Below are positions 17,001-62,287 of a stretch of DNA of 64,000 bases, piece after piece. The notes under the pieces were generated by a model that saw nothing but the letters and a program-made list of their open reading frames with translations, did no database searches and was not told the DNA's origin. The DNA is taken from positions 62,001-126,000 of the IMG/VR virus record IMGVR_UViG_3300020471_000004. One strand, 5' to 3'. Position 1 is the stretch's first letter; each line of letters begins with the position of its first letter. This DNA is from a virus. The position numbers were made by a program, and so were the translations under genes.

Positions 17001-19801
17001 CGCGAGCCTTTCAAGAAGTGAAGACCGATAAAGATAATGGTATTAGGCGGAGCGTTCGTAATCATTTCACGAAGACGCTCTTCACCCCAAGCTTTCATAC
17101 TTTCGTTGGTTACAGGAATCGCATTCCATTTACCTTTGGTAATCTTAGCTAAATCTTCGGCCCAGTTACCGCACAGTTTATCAGGTGCGATTACACCAGC
17201 TTTAATATCGCCGCGCTCTCTTTGGCTACAACCTATGTCAAGCAACAAGGTAATTGTTTTACCACCACCAGGCTGAATATCAAGCAACGCATATTTAGGA
17301 CGCTTACGCAAATACTTGTGTGCTTTAATCTGGTGAGGGAATACCTGAGACCCTTCTGCAATACCTTGCATCCGAATATCTGAAACGTCTACACTTTCAT
17401 CCATAGTGTATGACTCAGATTCAATCTCTGCTTGTTCAAAAATATCTACCGCATTAGGTACATAGTTAGAGAACATCTGCGCAAGAGGGTATACTTCACG
17501 AGACACCAAGTTATAAGGCATAGAGTAGCCGCCAATAACTGCATTTTCTTCTTCAAGAGGAATAAGCAAGTCACGCGGGTCAGATTTACATATCTCTTCA
17601 CAGACTTTCTTGAATACAAGACCGCCTAAATACGTATACACGTTGCCGAATTCGTGCATCTTGCTACGTTCTGGGTCAAAGAAGCTAGGATGATCAGGTA
17701 GCTCTGTATTGACGTTAGGTAAACCTACTTCTTCACCAACAATACGAACCAAGTTCGAACCGTAGTGACCAGAAGCATCTTCAAGAGCATAGGCAAGCAT
17801 ACCGTAGATAATAGAAACTTCACGGTCTTTGCCTTCACCTTGTATTTTACCTTTTTCGTCAATGTAATCCGTATACAGGTGCTTGTTCAAAGCATCTTGC
17901 TCAAGCGATTCGATACCTAGTTCTTGCATAGACTCTGTAATCAAAGTCTGTAGGTCACGTGCCTTGCTTTTCTGCAACAGGAACAAGTAAGTCTTTAGAA
18001 GGCTCTTGGTAGACTTGTTGTACAACCAAGCAAGGGCACGGCGGTTAGGTACACCTTTAGGTACGTCTTCGCCTTCGTATACACTAAAGCCTTTTTTCTC
18101 ACCTTGAGGTATCATGTAGTTCAAGCTGTCAACAAAGGTTTTAGCTTGTACACGTTCGCCTTCTTGTGAGAAATCGTAACCTAAGTAATCTGCAAGGGCA
18201 AGAGGACTAGGCTTAGTAGTACCGTTTAGGTCAACAGTTTGTTGTCCGAAGATAGTACTTGTGTTTGCTTCAAGTGCAACGTTATAGTCCCAGTTAAAAC
18301 TTAAAAGAGTACCTTTGTATCGATTAAGCTTATCCTTGGCGCCTGAAACCGCTTTCTCCATAGAAGGGTCTGCGCTTGCAGTAACAAAGGCACGGCTTAG
18401 TAGCGTACTGCTATTGGTCAAAGGACTATTGGTTCTGTAAGAAAGCTCTAGAGCCTTCTCCATGTCTGCTTCATAGTCTTTGGCGTTATCGAAATCAATA
18501 TCGTCAGCCTTAGGCATGAACGTAAGTAGACCACGAGGGTTAATACTCATGCGGTCATCATTAACACGACCAGCATCTACAGACATTCCTGACTCTTTAC
18601 GGTGCTTTAACAGAACCGAGTTTTTAGAAGCAGGGATAATGTAACGAGGCAAATGCTTAACAAAAGCACCACCACGAGCGCCGCCTTTAGGACGTAAGAA
18701 TACTCGACCCCATTGTGAGATCCAAGTATTTAAGGCATAAAGGTTGCCAGTACCATCAGTTGTTTGTGAAATGTAGTCTACAAACTTTTTAGGCAAACTG
18801 ATACTTATACTGGTTGCCATTTTACGAACCAAAGCGCTTTCAATTGTAAGAAGCTCTTGGTTGTTAGGCTGCTCTGGTTCAATTAAAGAATCAGGGTTAG
18901 ACTGCTTTAGTTCTAAGTTACGGTAATAATCTGCGTAACGGTTGACTAGAACAGGATGCGGAATAACTTGAACCAGAATATTAAAGTAAGGTTGCAGTGC
19001 CTGTACAAACTTACAATTACTGAATATGTTCAATTCAAAACCTAGTGTACGGCGAACAACATCATTCAATCTTTCGAAATCAAAGTCAAAAGGTAAAAGT
19101 GTTTGGTGCCACTCTTGGGCGGTGTCTACACTAAAAGACTTTTGAAAGATAGCTTGTTGTACTTGCTCTAAGGCAGCCTTGGCATTAATAGCAACCGTGC
19201 TTTCGTAATGGTTAACCTTATTACGATCATAGTTAGCATCAGGTGCGTCACTAATACCGTCTTCAAAGTTAGCAATAGAATGGACGTAGCCTGAGCTGGT
19301 TGAAGAACCGTCACCGTATGCAGGTATACCAGAAAAGATAATGTCTTTACCACCAGGGTAACGCGTACTATCTTTAACCACATGGTAATGATGGCTATTC
19401 CCACCAGCAGAGTTAAGTCTACCTAGGAAACCTTTAATTTGCTCTTCCATCATATCTTCACCGATGGCGTTCTGCATCAGTACCAGACGGTTACGCAAAT
19501 GTTCTTCAAGTTCTTGTGGCTCTTGATCTTCAAGAACGCCTCCGCGGGCGATCATGTAGGAGCATATCCGAACAAAGTTATTAAGCTGAGCGCTTATTTT
19601 AATTGATTCAACCACAAGTGCTGCAATGTCACTGGTCTTAACCGGCTTATCATTACTTTTAGCATAGAATATGTTTAGATATTCCTTGTTATCTTCCTTT
19701 GAAAGTTTTACAGGAGCCAAAGAGTCTTGCAAAGAATCAATTGCAGCACTTGAGCTCTCTAAACCTTCAGAAGATACTTGGCCATAGTTCTCTATGTTCA
19801 T
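13997..19801 (-). CDS. giant SNF2-type helicase/ATPase (1934 aa)
   Basis: A 1934-residue protein. The helicase core begins near 830 with FPHQIKAHKYLRKRPKYALL, followed by Walker A QPGGGKT (about 845), a DESH box (about 964), and a C-terminal lobe from about 1270 (GKCLIFCRYVRTVDTIY) with ANEQAITEGHNLQMAS and QSTARIFRP. This is the SNF2/RapA layout of DNA- or RNAP-remodelling ATPases. The first 800 residues have no recognised domain. A highly charged linker lies near 1640-1720, and the last 200 residues are a further unrecognised region. It is much larger than ordinary phage helicases. It precedes a terminator-like hairpin. Confidence 0.9.
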   Translation of the reverse strand: MNIENYGQVSSEGLESSSAAIDSLQDSLAPVKLSKEDNKEYLNIFYAKSNDKPVKTSDIAALVVESIKISAQLNNFVRICSYMIARGGVLEDQEPQELEEHLRNRLVLMQNAIGEDMMEEQIKGFLGRLNSAGGNSHHYHVVKDSTRYPGGKDIIFSGIPAYGDGSSTSSGYVHSIANFEDGISDAPDANYDRNKVNHYESTVAINAKAALEQVQQAIFQKSFSVDTAQEWHQTLLPFDFDFERLNDVVRRTLGFELNIFSNCKFVQALQPYFNILVQVIPHPVLVNRYADYYRNLELKQSNPDSLIEPEQPNNQELLTIESALVRKMATSISISLPKKFVDYISQTTDGTGNLYALNTWISQWGRVFLRPKGGARGGAFVKHLPRYIIPASKNSVLLKHRKESGMSVDAGRVNDDRMSINPRGLLTFMPKADDIDFDNAKDYEADMEKALELSYRTNSPLTNSSTLLSRAFVTASADPSMEKAVSGAKDKLNRYKGTLLSFNWDYNVALEANTSTIFGQQTVDLNGTTKPSPLALADYLGYDFSQEGERVQAKTFVDSLNYMIPQGEKKGFSVYEGEDVPKGVPNRRALAWLYNKSTKSLLKTYLFLLQKSKARDLQTLITESMQELGIESLEQDALNKHLYTDYIDEKGKIQGEGKDREVSIIYGMLAYALEDASGHYGSNLVRIVGEEVGLPNVNTELPDHPSFFDPERSKMHEFGNVYTYLGGLVFKKVCEEICKSDPRDLLIPLEEENAVIGGYSMPYNLVSREVYPLAQMFSNYVPNAVDIFEQAEIESESYTMDESVDVSDIRMQGIAEGSQVFPHQIKAHKYLRKRPKYALLDIQPGGGKTITLLLDIGCSQRERGDIKAGVIAPDKLCGNWAEDLAKITKGKWNAIPVTNESMKAWGEERLREMITNAPPNTIIFIGLHFLKGSRTDISYGPRKLRLYGGVEFIKSLGLNYIALDESHKAKKFDPGKNTSAFHNSCKQIFTMPGVEYSRLLTGTFIHGILEDAVGQSALFSSHIFRTPDDFNIDASAPDGAIRVRSKLGQHASVITVKRKEWAFMLPTPIDTFVEVKLIDPEYPDDEIFAQVYSAILNQSMEELEATVAKNLRRKVNTDEDEEDEDENGYGSAMGDVDFDEDEELGAIGSSVFGYHMQRLEQLIIDPWGDDAFKEVAIPAGVSRNYVSPKVRKIVERLDRHFEVNDYDPNIEGLHIFRWEPDMKLRELDVVEHNGQRYMRRRLENDEVSLKRRDVPTSSTPPDQDPENWKPETFGKCLIFCRYVRTVDTIYKSLPPKYKAITRRFHSKLENAWEQIDSFKKDPDVKVLIANEQAITEGHNLQMASRIIRVETPWSPGDYEQSTARIFRPDPAAAKIVDGKPGDMKREVIYIDWLISQGSLEVAKVARLMWKTVEKTKFDEKGNPRYDKVMEITLPKIKMDIKTLIKAATEGLDGFRDHFYVKGMIASIEGQEFHEMRKTTQATMQDLPVEEPAEDFKAIEFLPVLSNQRMLDVKGHGLVPFPDWYGQWKEKNYDNDSDALKSVTDEQFSNLVRKLPVRTEFGTGIIVGWTKLRKVKNLDGTETIDHDDPISNFKVRFNSNDEIGNISPKKTYIATKVTPADLDKFFSTNKPWSTESERRAIEREAKKREEQEQAKAKKEEQRKQAERKRTKQEENVVKKGKKRRKNIAEGKPVNDGVIIGNKSKTVPKHKDNTVDIVGADMSIEIIPSVYNGFLALHVNASDPDAKNLKKLGFKEFGEYAYLEFKRYNHFDKALDYIEDRMELDANGVKRLNAIMDVFEEKRGMPAGFDLKLGMKVQAELPNFFMTRHRESRNRKVIKLYPAVLPDRIRLTVDIATNPVIRKHLGKTIPGAGPGGKWKTHPGMSIFFAVNKSTAKAKIRELTKEGYTITNSDKLIKALQALEVRRTAEHTRQLKG

Positions 19802-25496: not shown

Positions 25497-26757
25497 ATTG
25501 TTCAACCATGTCCCGAATAACTTCGCGAGAAAGTCTCGGTCCTAGTTTAAGTGTTTTAACAAGGCGGTCCACGTTGTCAATGAAGTCTTTAGACCGAGTA
25601 TCTATATTTCGGCTAATTGCAAAAACCAAGAACGTATTAGGTGATTTACCTCCTACGCTACGTTTACCTCGGATTTCTCTAACACCAATACTACGGTTCT
25701 TGGATTTAGGTATAAAGATTTGTCTAATCAAGGCGCGCAGTGTAGCTGTAAGATCTTTTTTCTGACGGTCGCTTAGACCTGGATCGATTTTAACAAACAG
25801 TTCAGAATCTCTAACACGTAGACCTTTAACATTCTTGGTACCTTTTAGAATACTTAATTCTTCGGTCTTGCGAATAGAAGAAAGCTTTTGTCTGCCTACC
25901 TGTACATGAAGGCTGTCGATATGCGCCAAAGACTGTAAGGTCTGCTTTAAATGAGGAACGCTTTTGATTTCTTTACCTATAGGAAACGAGCCAGGTATTC
26001 TTGGATCTTTCAAACTAGTAATGTGAGGAACTAACTCGTAATTGGTTTGGTCTAGTACACTAGTGATAACGTATGAGTATTGCTCATAATTAAAACCTTC
26101 GGAATTGATAAGGTTCTTTACCAAAACAAAAGTCTGAAAATAAATAGTGTTAGGCGCAGGGTTCAAGATATAACTCTTGATAGCGAAGCCAGAATAAGTT
26201 GCGCTGTCTAGGCTTGCTTTTAGGATATCACGAGTAGCCTTAATGATGCTCTTATGATTCTTAGGAATATAGTTCTTGCTGATACGGTCAAGCGCATCTA
26301 ACTGGGTCTTTCGATGATCTTCTGCTTGTAAAATAATAGCTTTGATCATTTTGATTGTTTGTTTACTTTCTTCTAGGCGAGAGAACTGCTTAGAACTAAG
26401 CACTCGAATAGCTACCTCTAGTTCACCAATAGAATCACTAAGCTCTTGTACCGCAGTGGTATTGGTAGCCATTTCTTTTTTGGTTGGCGTTTTGAAGTTT
26501 TTATCAAGAACGCTACGAAGTGAACCTTTTGCTTTTTTACCAACGTTAGAATTAGGTTTCTTTATAAAGTCACTTAATTCCCGTTCATCGGCGGACACCG
26601 CAGAAAGGTTAATAGTTATTTTAGACGAACTGATACTTTGAATAAACTTGGCAGTTTGCTTGCCTAGAGTGTCTATACGTTTTTGTATAACATCGACAAT
26701 GCTCATTACCTCGTTTAAAGATCGTGCGCCTTGCAACTTTTCTACAGATGATTTCAT
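25486..26757 (-). CDS. hypothetical protein with helical N-terminus, probable virion protein
   Basis: A 423-residue basic protein. The N-terminal half is helical with coiled-coil character (residues about 10-170), and the C-terminal half has strands (ELFVKIDPGLSDRQKKDLTATL). It heads the group with 24360 and 23158. It is preceded by a strong terminator at 26787-26820, so expression must start nearby, although no AAACTGTAAA copy is seen there. Function unknown. Confidence 0.75.
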   Translation of the reverse strand: MKSSVEKLQGARSLNEVMSIVDVIQKRIDTLGKQTAKFIQSISSSKITINLSAVSADERELSDFIKKPNSNVGKKAKGSLRSVLDKNFKTPTKKEMATNTTAVQELSDSIGELEVAIRVLSSKQFSRLEESKQTIKMIKAIILQAEDHRKTQLDALDRISKNYIPKNHKSIIKATRDILKASLDSATYSGFAIKSYILNPAPNTIYFQTFVLVKNLINSEGFNYEQYSYVITSVLDQTNYELVPHITSLKDPRIPGSFPIGKEIKSVPHLKQTLQSLAHIDSLHVQVGRQKLSSIRKTEELSILKGTKNVKGLRVRDSELFVKIDPGLSDRQKKDLTATLRALIRQIFIPKSKNRSIGVREIRGKRSVGGKSPNTFLVFAISRNIDTRSKDFIDNVDRLVKTLKLGPRLSREVIRDMVEQYGD

Positions 26758-59556: not shown

Positions 59557-59627
59557 GGAGACAAACGGTTAGCTAGAGGATTTCAACCCTTGATTGCTGG
59601 TGGGTTCGAGTCCCCCTGTCTTCACCA
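59557..59627 (+). tRNA. tRNA gene, unusual; possible tRNA-Glu (TTC)
   Basis: Acceptor arms GGAGACA and TGTCTTC pair (one G-U) and CCA is encoded, giving 71 bases in total. The T arm is GTGGG, loop TTCGAGT, CCCCC, with one mismatch. Only 34 bases remain for the D arm, anticodon arm and variable loop. The best anticodon arm has TTC at 59582-59584, with T33 and A37 in place, but the stem has a mismatch and a wobble pair. A D arm would be almost absent. It may be degenerate or unconventional. Confidence 0.55.
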
Positions 59628-59630
59628 CAT

Positions 59631-59706
59631 GCCCCTATAGCTCAGTTGGTAGAGCAAACGACTCATAATCGTCAGGTCCCTGGTTCAAGCCCAGGTAGGG
59701 GCACCA
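59631..59706 (+). tRNA. tRNA with CAT anticodon (Met or Ile-lysidine type)
   Basis: A 76-base tRNA with GCCCCTA paired to TAGGGGC, D arm GCTCAGTTGGTAGAGC, anticodon CAT at 59664-59666 (position 34-36), T arm CCTGG, TTCAAGC, CCAGG and encoded CCA. The G1-C72 pair argues against initiator tRNA; elongator Met or Ile2 are both possible. Confidence 0.95.
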
Positions 59707-60266: not shown

Positions 60267-60602
60267 ATGTCTAAATTTCTTAAAGTTAAACTTAAATCGC
60301 TTGCAGAAGAACAACGCGTTATCAAAAAAGAAGAGTCTAAGTACAAAGGCCCGCGATGGGGCTCTAACTGGACTCGCATACTTTTAATGACGCATCGATT
60401 GTATGCTGTACGCCCAGAGATACGGGCGACTCATTTAGCATACGGGTATCTTCAAGGAAAGCCGCTTTGCTGTATTGAATCATCGCAATCTCGTACTGAA
60501 CCTGATTGGGATAGGGTATTCGCAATGGTAAAGAAATACGGTACTTACCAACAAGCAAAAGACTTTGAGCAATGGAAACAACCTCTATCTAAAGCTGCTT
60601 AA
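60267..60602 (+). CDS. small phage protein (111 aa)
   Basis: A 111-residue basic protein. The pattern EEQRVIKKEESKYKGP, then VRPEIRATHLAYGYL and PDWDRVFAMVKKYG, recurs in small proteins of other tailed phages as far as I recall, but no function is established. Good ribosome site. It ends directly at the first stem-loop of the RNA region. Confidence 0.75.
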   Translation: MSKFLKVKLKSLAEEQRVIKKEESKYKGPRWGSNWTRILLMTHRLYAVRPEIRATHLAYGYLQGKPLCCIESSQSRTEPDWDRVFAMVKKYGTYQQAKDFEQWKQPLSKAA

Positions 60603-60647
60603 AAAAGGCGGCGGTCTAGAGTTATCTAGGCTGCTGCCGACCCTTTC

Positions 60648-60706
60648 TGCCAGTTCGTTTATTCTCCTTAATTGTGGCAAGGTATCTTCTTGTAAACGAA
60701 CTGGCA
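60648..60706 (+). ncRNA. 14-bp stem-loop of the RNA array
   Basis: TGCCAGTTCGTTTA pairs perfectly with TAAACGAACTGGCA over a 31-base loop; CCTCTTTTAG follows. It is one of two very long perfect stems of the array and could be a free small RNA or a processing site. Confidence 0.6.
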
Positions 60707-60715
60707 CCTCTTTTA

Positions 60716-60781
60716 GCTGACAAGGCTCCCCAGGTTAGACTGAGTGTTTCATGCCTGTTGCTTTCAGTCTGCCTTGTCGGC
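60716..60781 (+). ncRNA. two-tier stem-loop of the RNA array
   Basis: GCTGACAAGGC pairs with GCCTTGTCGGC (11 bp, one G-U), and within it AGACTGA pairs with TCAGTCT (7 bp). ACCTTTATT follows, a short U-rich tail. Confidence 0.6.
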
Positions 60782-60826
60782 ACCTTTATTCAAACAGCTT
60801 CTTACTGATCATAGGCTAGCTGTTTC

Positions 60827-60842
60827 GCTCTTTAACAATTTA
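60827..60842 (+). promoter_or_regulatory. boxA antitermination element
   Basis: GCTCTTTAACAATTTA matches the boxA core of gammaproteobacterial rRNA leaders, the RNA site bound by NusB and ribosomal protein S10 (NusE), which makes RNA polymerase resist Rho termination. In the middle of a region of hairpins it could let transcription continue to the genes further right, or bind the Nus proteins as a decoy. Confidence 0.65.
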
Positions 60843-61240
60843 GAATCTTGCACCTTGCTGCCTAACACAACGACTCGGAAGGTTACGTGTTAGAACCAGG
60901 GTGCCGATACACTGTAGGTAACTTAACAAGGCAAGAGGCAAACCTCATGCTCTGTACCGATGCTTTGTTCTACAGTGTTTTTATTAGGTGCAGATAGACC
61001 AATGTCTTTATTCGTCAAAGGATATTGGTTGAACAACTTACATTAAACCTATGCACTTTTGCAAGCATTAAACTATATGTACTGGCGAACGATTCTGTAG
61101 GGCACAGAGGGATCAAATATATACTGCTCCAATGCTCAGGATGCAGACACGCATTGATACTTTCAAATCCTTTATAATCAATAGTGTATAAGATAACAGC
61201 CGTGCGCCTTAAAAACAGGAACGCCTGTAATCAAAGGATA

Positions 61241-61300
61241 GGCACCTAGGTAAAGCCTAAGTTAAGCACTTCCCTTTACCTAGGTGCCGACCGTATTTTT
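61241..61300 (+). terminator. 15-bp perfect stem with U-run, last element of the array
   Basis: GGCACCTAGGTAAAG pairs perfectly with CTTTACCTAGGTGCC across an 18-base loop, followed by GACCGTATTTTTT. It reads as a strong terminator at the end of the RNA array, ahead of the gene at 61409. Confidence 0.7.
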
Positions 61301-61408
61301 TGAGTGGCAGATAAATACAAATTGTCGTCAGACACAGGGTGTCCTTAACCTGTAGATTCGGTTAGAACCTAACTGACCTTTCTGTCTCTTTTTATTCTGG
61401 AGAACTTT

Positions 61409-61684
61409 ATGGCTTTCGGCTTTCTTGTACCAGAAGGTACTTATGTAAACTACGGACTTAATGATTCTAGTAGTTCGCTTTTTGTAAATGTTCCTTTGAA
61501 CTACTCTGCTGTTATCTTTACTATGCTCAAGTCGCGTAATACCCAAGGTAACCGCAGAGGCTACGATTGGTCTATTGAGTTCTATGTAGGACCTGATGAA
61601 ATTGGCGCAGTGTGGGTTTATAGTTCTGAAAAAGCTCGCGATGACGATTACGAAAGAATGCTTTCTACTACTTTCGTAGGCTAA
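61409..61684 (+). CDS. small hypothetical protein (91 aa)
   Basis: A 91-residue protein with good ribosome site (TGGAGAACTTT). Beta-rich (YVNYGLNDSSSSLFVNVPLNY). No family recognised. An exact promoter-like motif overlaps its stop codon. Confidence 0.75.
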   Translation: MAFGFLVPEGTYVNYGLNDSSSSLFVNVPLNYSAVIFTMLKSRNTQGNRRGYDWSIEFYVGPDEIGAVWVYSSEKARDDDYERMLSTTFVG

Positions 61685-62052: not shown

Positions 62053-62131
62053 CCGCCTAGCTAGGTGGCGCTGTACGCTACTTGCGCCCCAACAATAGCG
62101 CCTTACTCTGAACCTAGCTAGGTGGTTTTTT
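62053..62131 (+). terminator. long-stem terminator
   Basis: CCGCCTAGCTAGGT pairs with ACCTAGCTAGGTGG (14 bp, one G-U) and continues inwards as GGCGCT with AGCGCC. TTTTTT follows. The arms contain the palindrome CCTAGCTAGG, so each can also pair with itself. Confidence 0.75.
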
Positions 62132-62133
62132 GA

Positions 62134-62239
62134 GTATATCAAGATACTGCTTACTTCCCAGTATCGGCGGCAACTTACCGCATTATACTGCCTAAAGCTT
62201 TGACCCCTTTAGGCAGTATCTTGATATGCTTCTCATATC
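62134..62239 (+). ncRNA. competing hairpins, possible RNA switch
   Basis: TATCAAGATACTGC (62137-62150) pairs perfectly with 62213-62226. ATACTGCCTAAAG (62185-62197) pairs perfectly with 62207-62219, and GATATG (62223-62228) pairs with CATATC (62234-62239). The three stems share bases, so they exclude each other. ATACTGC occurs in both 5' arms. Confidence 0.6.
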
Positions 62240-62287
62240 ACCTCGATGATTGTTGTAGTAATGTTCCATGCGCTCACATGGATCTTT

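Follow-up and report, generated by a model that had tools for sequence, protein, structure and literature searches.

An extended rRNA-type boxA within an untranslated hairpin array of a phage genome, and boxA elements ahead of phage tRNA arrays

The 64,000-nt stretch of DNA analyzed here (the window; bases 62001-126000 of the 232,692-bp phage record G000) carries an extended rRNA-type boxA at 60827..60842 on the + strand (GCTCTTTAACAATTTA), which is identical to the E. coli rRNA leader at 16 of 16 bases. A preliminary description of this DNA had placed a host-type boxA there, within a hairpin array, and the exact 16-mer on the + strand and its rRNA-leader identity bear this out. As a sequence element the boxA is genuine, and it represents a putative binding site for NusB-S10. 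We consider it probable that this is a working rRNA-type boxA, through which the phage borrows host NusB-S10 antitermination for the production of a long, untranslated and folded RNA.

The boxA core (GCTCTTTAACA, 60827-60837) fits GYTCTTTAANA, which is the gammaproteobacterial consensus (PMC5725501). A count over the whole genome, as the preliminary description had suggested, recovered the 16-mer once in 232,692 bp with both strands searched, compared to an expectation of 0.0005 copies per record under a third-order Markov model. The same model gives 0.021 copies per record for YTCTTTAACAATTT and about 1.0 per genome for the core GYTCTTTAACA, of which the record holds two further exact copies, both within genes. 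The core alone, expected about once per genome, is therefore weak evidence, and it is the extended match, the intergenic place and the setting that carry weight. In E. coli, a 41-nt rRNA-leader sequence starting with the same 16 nt is present in 5,375 of 5,426 complete genomes (median 7 places per genome, as many as there are rrn operons); similarity of the window site to the rRNA leader does not extend beyond the 16 nt. The window boxA is intergenic and is unpaired in predicted folds.

The site resides in an untranslated hairpin array of 806 nt (60603..61408, +) with no convincing gene, bounded by a 111-aa ORF on its 5' side (60267..60602, +) and a 91-aa ORF on its 3' side (61409..61684, +). 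The nearest named phage is NCTB (LT598654; RecA 81% identical), in which these ORFs have counterparts with 66% and 29% identity, respectively; no relatives of the 111-aa protein were found in IMG/VR. Seven hairpins of the array were measured, with z-scores from −2.7 to −6.4 relative to dinucleotide shuffles. Two of these flank boxA and are described below; the others, all on the + strand, are at 60607..60638 (14-bp stem, then GACC; z −6.2), 60648..60706 (perfect 14-bp stem with a 31-nt loop, ending in GGCA and then CC; z −6.0), 60716..60781 (11-bp stem with an inner stem, then ACC; z −3.8), 60909..60978 (perfect 9-bp outer stem, then TTTTATT; z −2.9) and 61241..61288 (perfect 15-bp stem, then GACC; z −6.4).

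The hairpins had been described as terminator-like. While they fold far better than shuffled sequences, an array of intrinsic terminators was rejected: hairpin loops are long or the T-tract is missing, and a terminator scan found no intrinsic terminator between 60603 and 61300. The nearest approach to one is the hairpin at 60909-60978, which is followed by TTTTATT but has a 52-nt interior. Array hairpins are thus mostly not intrinsic terminators, and the obstacles expected in the array are Rho and the misfolding of a long untranslated RNA. Rfam detects no known RNA families in the window except a tRNA-Met (59631-59706), which is the only tRNA and lies upstream of boxA; NCTB has no tRNA-Met.

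Several other features of the region were observed. Four of the seven measured hairpins (60607-61292) end in or precede ACC (GACC, GGCACC, GGCACC, GACC), tails that resemble the 3' ends of tRNAs or minimal substrates of RNase P, and the last hairpin of the NCTB array is also followed by GACC. With respect to these tails, only the longest two stems of the array are conspicuous when perfect stems are scanned across the genome, and as a meaningful feature of the array the ACC tails are suggestive. Strong inverted repeats lie between genes at 62053-62243 (CCGCCTAGCTAGGT/ACCTAGCTAGGTGG), where there is also a 34-nt paired stem with arms at 62120-62153 and 62210-62243. A tRNA-like element at 59557-59626, called by neither ARAGORN nor Rfam, has a 7-bp acceptor stem, a TTCGAGT T-loop, CCA and an anticodon-loop-like AUUUCAA. 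It is 90% identical to NCTB 18499-18569, with a compensatory change in one acceptor pair (A-U to G-C), was found in no INPHARED record besides NCTB, and is possibly a D-arm-reduced tRNA-Glu.

In the predicted structure, boxA lies between two hairpins. On its 5' side, a boxB-like hairpin (60792..60825, +; 8-bp stem AAACAGCT/AGCTGTTT, −7.0 kcal/mol, z −2.7) ends 1 nt before boxA, yielding a boxB-boxA order. On its 3' side is a tRNA-sized folded element (60850..60904, +; z −2.9) with an 8-bp outer stem (GCACCTTG/CAGGGTGC), which opens 23 nt past the first base (G) of boxA, and a 7-bp inner stem (CTAACAC/GTGTTAG); neither ARAGORN nor Rfam calls it as a tRNA. The order in rrn leaders is boxB, boxA, boxC, and there boxA is both required for the recruitment of factors and sufficient for it (PMC10250234). 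The window shares with rRNA operon leaders the 16-nt boxA identity, a hairpin directly 5' of boxA and a long untranslated structured RNA 3' of it. It is unlike them in having no rRNA (none in the window by Rfam), no boxC (UCUGUGUGGG; absent 3' of boxA in 60843-60910) and hairpins also 5' of boxA, and in being part of a phage genome. What it shares with lambdoid nut sites is a phage boxA, the element to which NusB-S10 binds. In lambda nut sites boxA comes before boxB, the hairpin for the phage N protein, whereas in the window the abutting hairpin is 5' of boxA, and in place of a short, nut-type boxB hairpin close after boxA the next stem begins at +23 nt and spans 55 nt. Hairpins abutting the 5' side of boxA are more frequent at 114 distinct phage sites than in shuffles, both at ≤ −4 kcal/mol (24% vs. 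7%) and at −6 kcal/mol (14% vs. 3%), with the window hairpin ranking among the better ones.

The preliminary description had regarded a perfect boxA as unusual in such a setting, a view that does not hold for viruses at large: at least 119 contigs in IMG/VR contain the exact 16-mer, compared with 29 for its reversed form, and boxA precedes a tRNA T-arm in 166 viral contigs. Among the IMG/VR matches listed, the 16-mer sites are mostly intergenic; carriers include temperate phages (APSE relatives), and a few matches, although on contigs assigned to viruses, are rrn leaders of bacteria (e.g., L058, L064). Several of the 16-mer sites begin a tRNA array. IMG/VR was searched for a boxA core followed by a T-arm at tRNA spacing, a pattern present in 63 contigs for GCTCTTTAACA, 103 for GTTCTTTAACA and one for the reversed core. 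At 54 of 63 and 81 of 104 sites, respectively (135 of 167 overall), the distance from the boxA G to the start of the tRNA is 14-37 nt, with a sharp mode at 26 nt, and the 60-nt downstream sequences comprise 42 distinct forms for GCTCTTTAACA sites and 76 for GTTCTTTAACA sites. At most sites the 500 nt upstream are free of tRNAs, indicating that boxA heads the tRNA array (loci with boxA 14-37 nt before the first tRNA: L032, L083, L108, L129, L142, L151-L208, L288-L390). A tRNA array headed by boxA is therefore likely to be a widespread phage arrangement.

A point-mutant core, GCTCATTAACA (one U to A), was meant as a control and was found in 12 contigs (L391-L402), 10 of which have the same tRNA spacing. 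It consequently looks like a boxA variant, suggesting that variant forms exist in these viral contigs, and the reversed core serves as the clean control. In 257 Gb of bacterial and archaeal genomes the GCTCTTTAACA-then-T-arm pattern has 26 scattered matches, which is about the level we estimate for chance, and bacterial tRNA operons with boxA were set aside as a candidate class. The habit is common but not general among phages, since boxA was not seen in the stretches read of the tRNA-array phages Moby, Sugarland, PAU, pEa_SNUABM_43 and D484. In the window, a tRNA-sized folded element stands at nearly the same distance from boxA as the tRNA does in these arrays (23 nt, compared to the mode of 26); the arrays have a true tRNA there, while by ARAGORN and Rfam the window has none 14-37 nt after boxA. 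We found no paper linking boxA to phage tRNA arrays or jumbo phages in the open-access literature, a scope that makes this weak evidence of novelty. The element is of a known kind; what appears to be new is its use in this array and, commonly, at the head of phage tRNA arrays.

Conservation among relatives, a point raised in the preliminary description, is in kind rather than in place. NCTB keeps both flanking genes and a noncoding hairpin stretch between them, but there is no boxA in that stretch orthologous to the window site. Its one intergenic extended boxA (CGTTCTTTAACAATTTGG, core at 26515) is ~5 kb downstream, between a stop codon and an intrinsic terminator. Defining as intergenic a core with no gene-sized ORF over it (a 52-codon frame on the reverse strand covers the NCTB site but is unannotated as a gene), the only intergenic exact cores among 8 related genomes are the window site and NCTB 26515, and both are extended to ACAATTT. 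No intergenic boxA is present in more distant relatives. An exact core is absent from Erwinia Y3 and Dickeya JA29, and a core in pEa_SNUABM_5 was set aside because a long ORF on the other strand covers it.

These observations are consistent with the following series of events. Transcription of the + strand by host RNA polymerase would run through both the 111-aa gene and the array; families for RNAP beta (PF00562) and NusB (PF01029) have no match in the record, making host polymerase and host Nus factors the natural assumption. boxA would then emerge single-stranded between its two hairpins, the upstream one supplying the boxB-boxA order of rrn leaders, and host NusB-S10 could bind it and recruit the rest of the Nus complex; sequence and predicted structure point to this step. 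The modified polymerase would resist Rho on the untranslated RNA downstream and may also aid RNA folding, as it does in rRNA. Both the hairpin RNAs and the genes beyond them would be produced as a result. Phage tRNA arrays, which are also long untranslated structured RNAs, would face the same problem and use the same device. There is a precedent in bacterial CRISPR arrays, which are preceded by boxA (Stringer et al. 2020, as cited in PMC7862264) and appear to counter Rho with it; adding boxA to a synthetic noncoding array in Legionella raised pre-crRNA ~10-fold (PMC7862264). In both cases boxA is placed ahead of a long noncoding array, although CRISPR arrays consist of repeats and spacers and the window array of unrelated hairpins. 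Given this precedent and the exposure of untranslated RNA to Rho, our reading is that the window boxA would load NusB-S10 and hold the polymerase in a processive state across the hairpin array and into the genes that follow, possibly with a role in folding like that in rRNA (PMC5725501).

Of the earlier proposal that host antitermination carries transcription past terminator hairpins, the terminators as obstacle are unsupported, while host antitermination is the best of the readings that remain. It gains strength from a hairpin-boxA order like that of rrn, the record's lack of RNAP beta and NusB matches, and the occurrence of boxA before phage tRNA arrays. Several findings count against a working antitermination boxA in the window. 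The element is not kept in place in NCTB, whose array is without it, and more distant relatives have no intergenic copy; there is no boxC, and with several hairpins 5' of it boxA does not head the window array; some tRNA-array phages are without boxA in the stretches read; and the effect of Nus factors can also be repressive, as at suhB (PMC5725501).

The strongest rival, which we nonetheless regard as unlikely, is a pure role in folding and processing, in which the Nus complex keeps hold of the nascent transcript at its 5' end for correct folding and cutting of the array and has little effect on termination. The array is highly structured, boxA lies directly before tRNAs in other phages, and rRNA provides a precedent, being intrinsically Rho-resistant, with folding as the main role of Nus factors there (PMC5725501). 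However, self-contained hairpins in a stem-loop array need little folding help, and the work on CRISPR arrays favors processivity (PMC7862264).

A repressive leader, with boxA and Nus factors controlling translation or termination of the 91-aa gene, is a still less probable explanation. It has a precedent in suhB (PMC5725501) and in a second arrangement, consisting of boxA, a terminator-like hairpin and an ORF, which is found in the Pseudomonas jumbo phages Psa21, D6 and RVTF4 and in three IMG/VR contigs, and NCTB 26515 likewise shows boxA, a terminator-like hairpin and a gene. In these small-gene leaders of jumbo phages and relatives (L281 in D6, L282 in Psa21, L284 in RVTF4; L069, L074, L080) the hairpin is UUCG terminator-like, its stem covaries on both sides and the boxA core is invariant. 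In the window, by contrast, the next gene starts 567 nt 3' of boxA with several hairpins between, and the array has no clear terminator.

We give as little credence to the site being functionless, either a chance AT-rich 16-mer that resembles an rRNA leader or a leftover of host DNA. The site was picked after a scan of 64 kb, it is not kept in place in NCTB, and the reversed 16-mer also turns up in viral contigs (29). Against a functionless site stand the low expected number of copies per genome, the intergenic place and the abutting hairpin, as well as the independent extended boxA in NCTB and the fact that boxA is strongly enriched at the noncoding RNA arrays of phages; rRNA-leader similarity also stops at 16 nt. 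Titration of Nus factors, a further proposal of the preliminary description in which phage RNA soaks up NusB-S10 and weakens host rRNA synthesis, is very improbable, for although the site is a perfect rRNA-type one and a phage may reach high copy number, its single copy per genome, with no boxA repeats, would compete with several strong rrn operons in a typical host.

More tentatively, and with considerably less confidence than in antitermination itself, the array could be a phage counterpart of the rRNA operon: a polycistronic noncoding RNA driven by boxB-boxA, which would yield its hairpins as small, stable RNAs whose 3' ends resemble those of tRNAs, as one case of boxA-led noncoding transcription that would be widespread in phages. 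If the antitermination reading is true, many phages, large ones included, would borrow host rRNA antitermination to express untranslated RNA operons, with a layout that appears to be that of rrn and not of nut. One could then predict that phages with tRNA arrays use NusB as a host factor, a search for the extended boxA would be a simple way to find noncoding RNA operons in phages, and phages would provide a natural test of boxA action outside rRNA.
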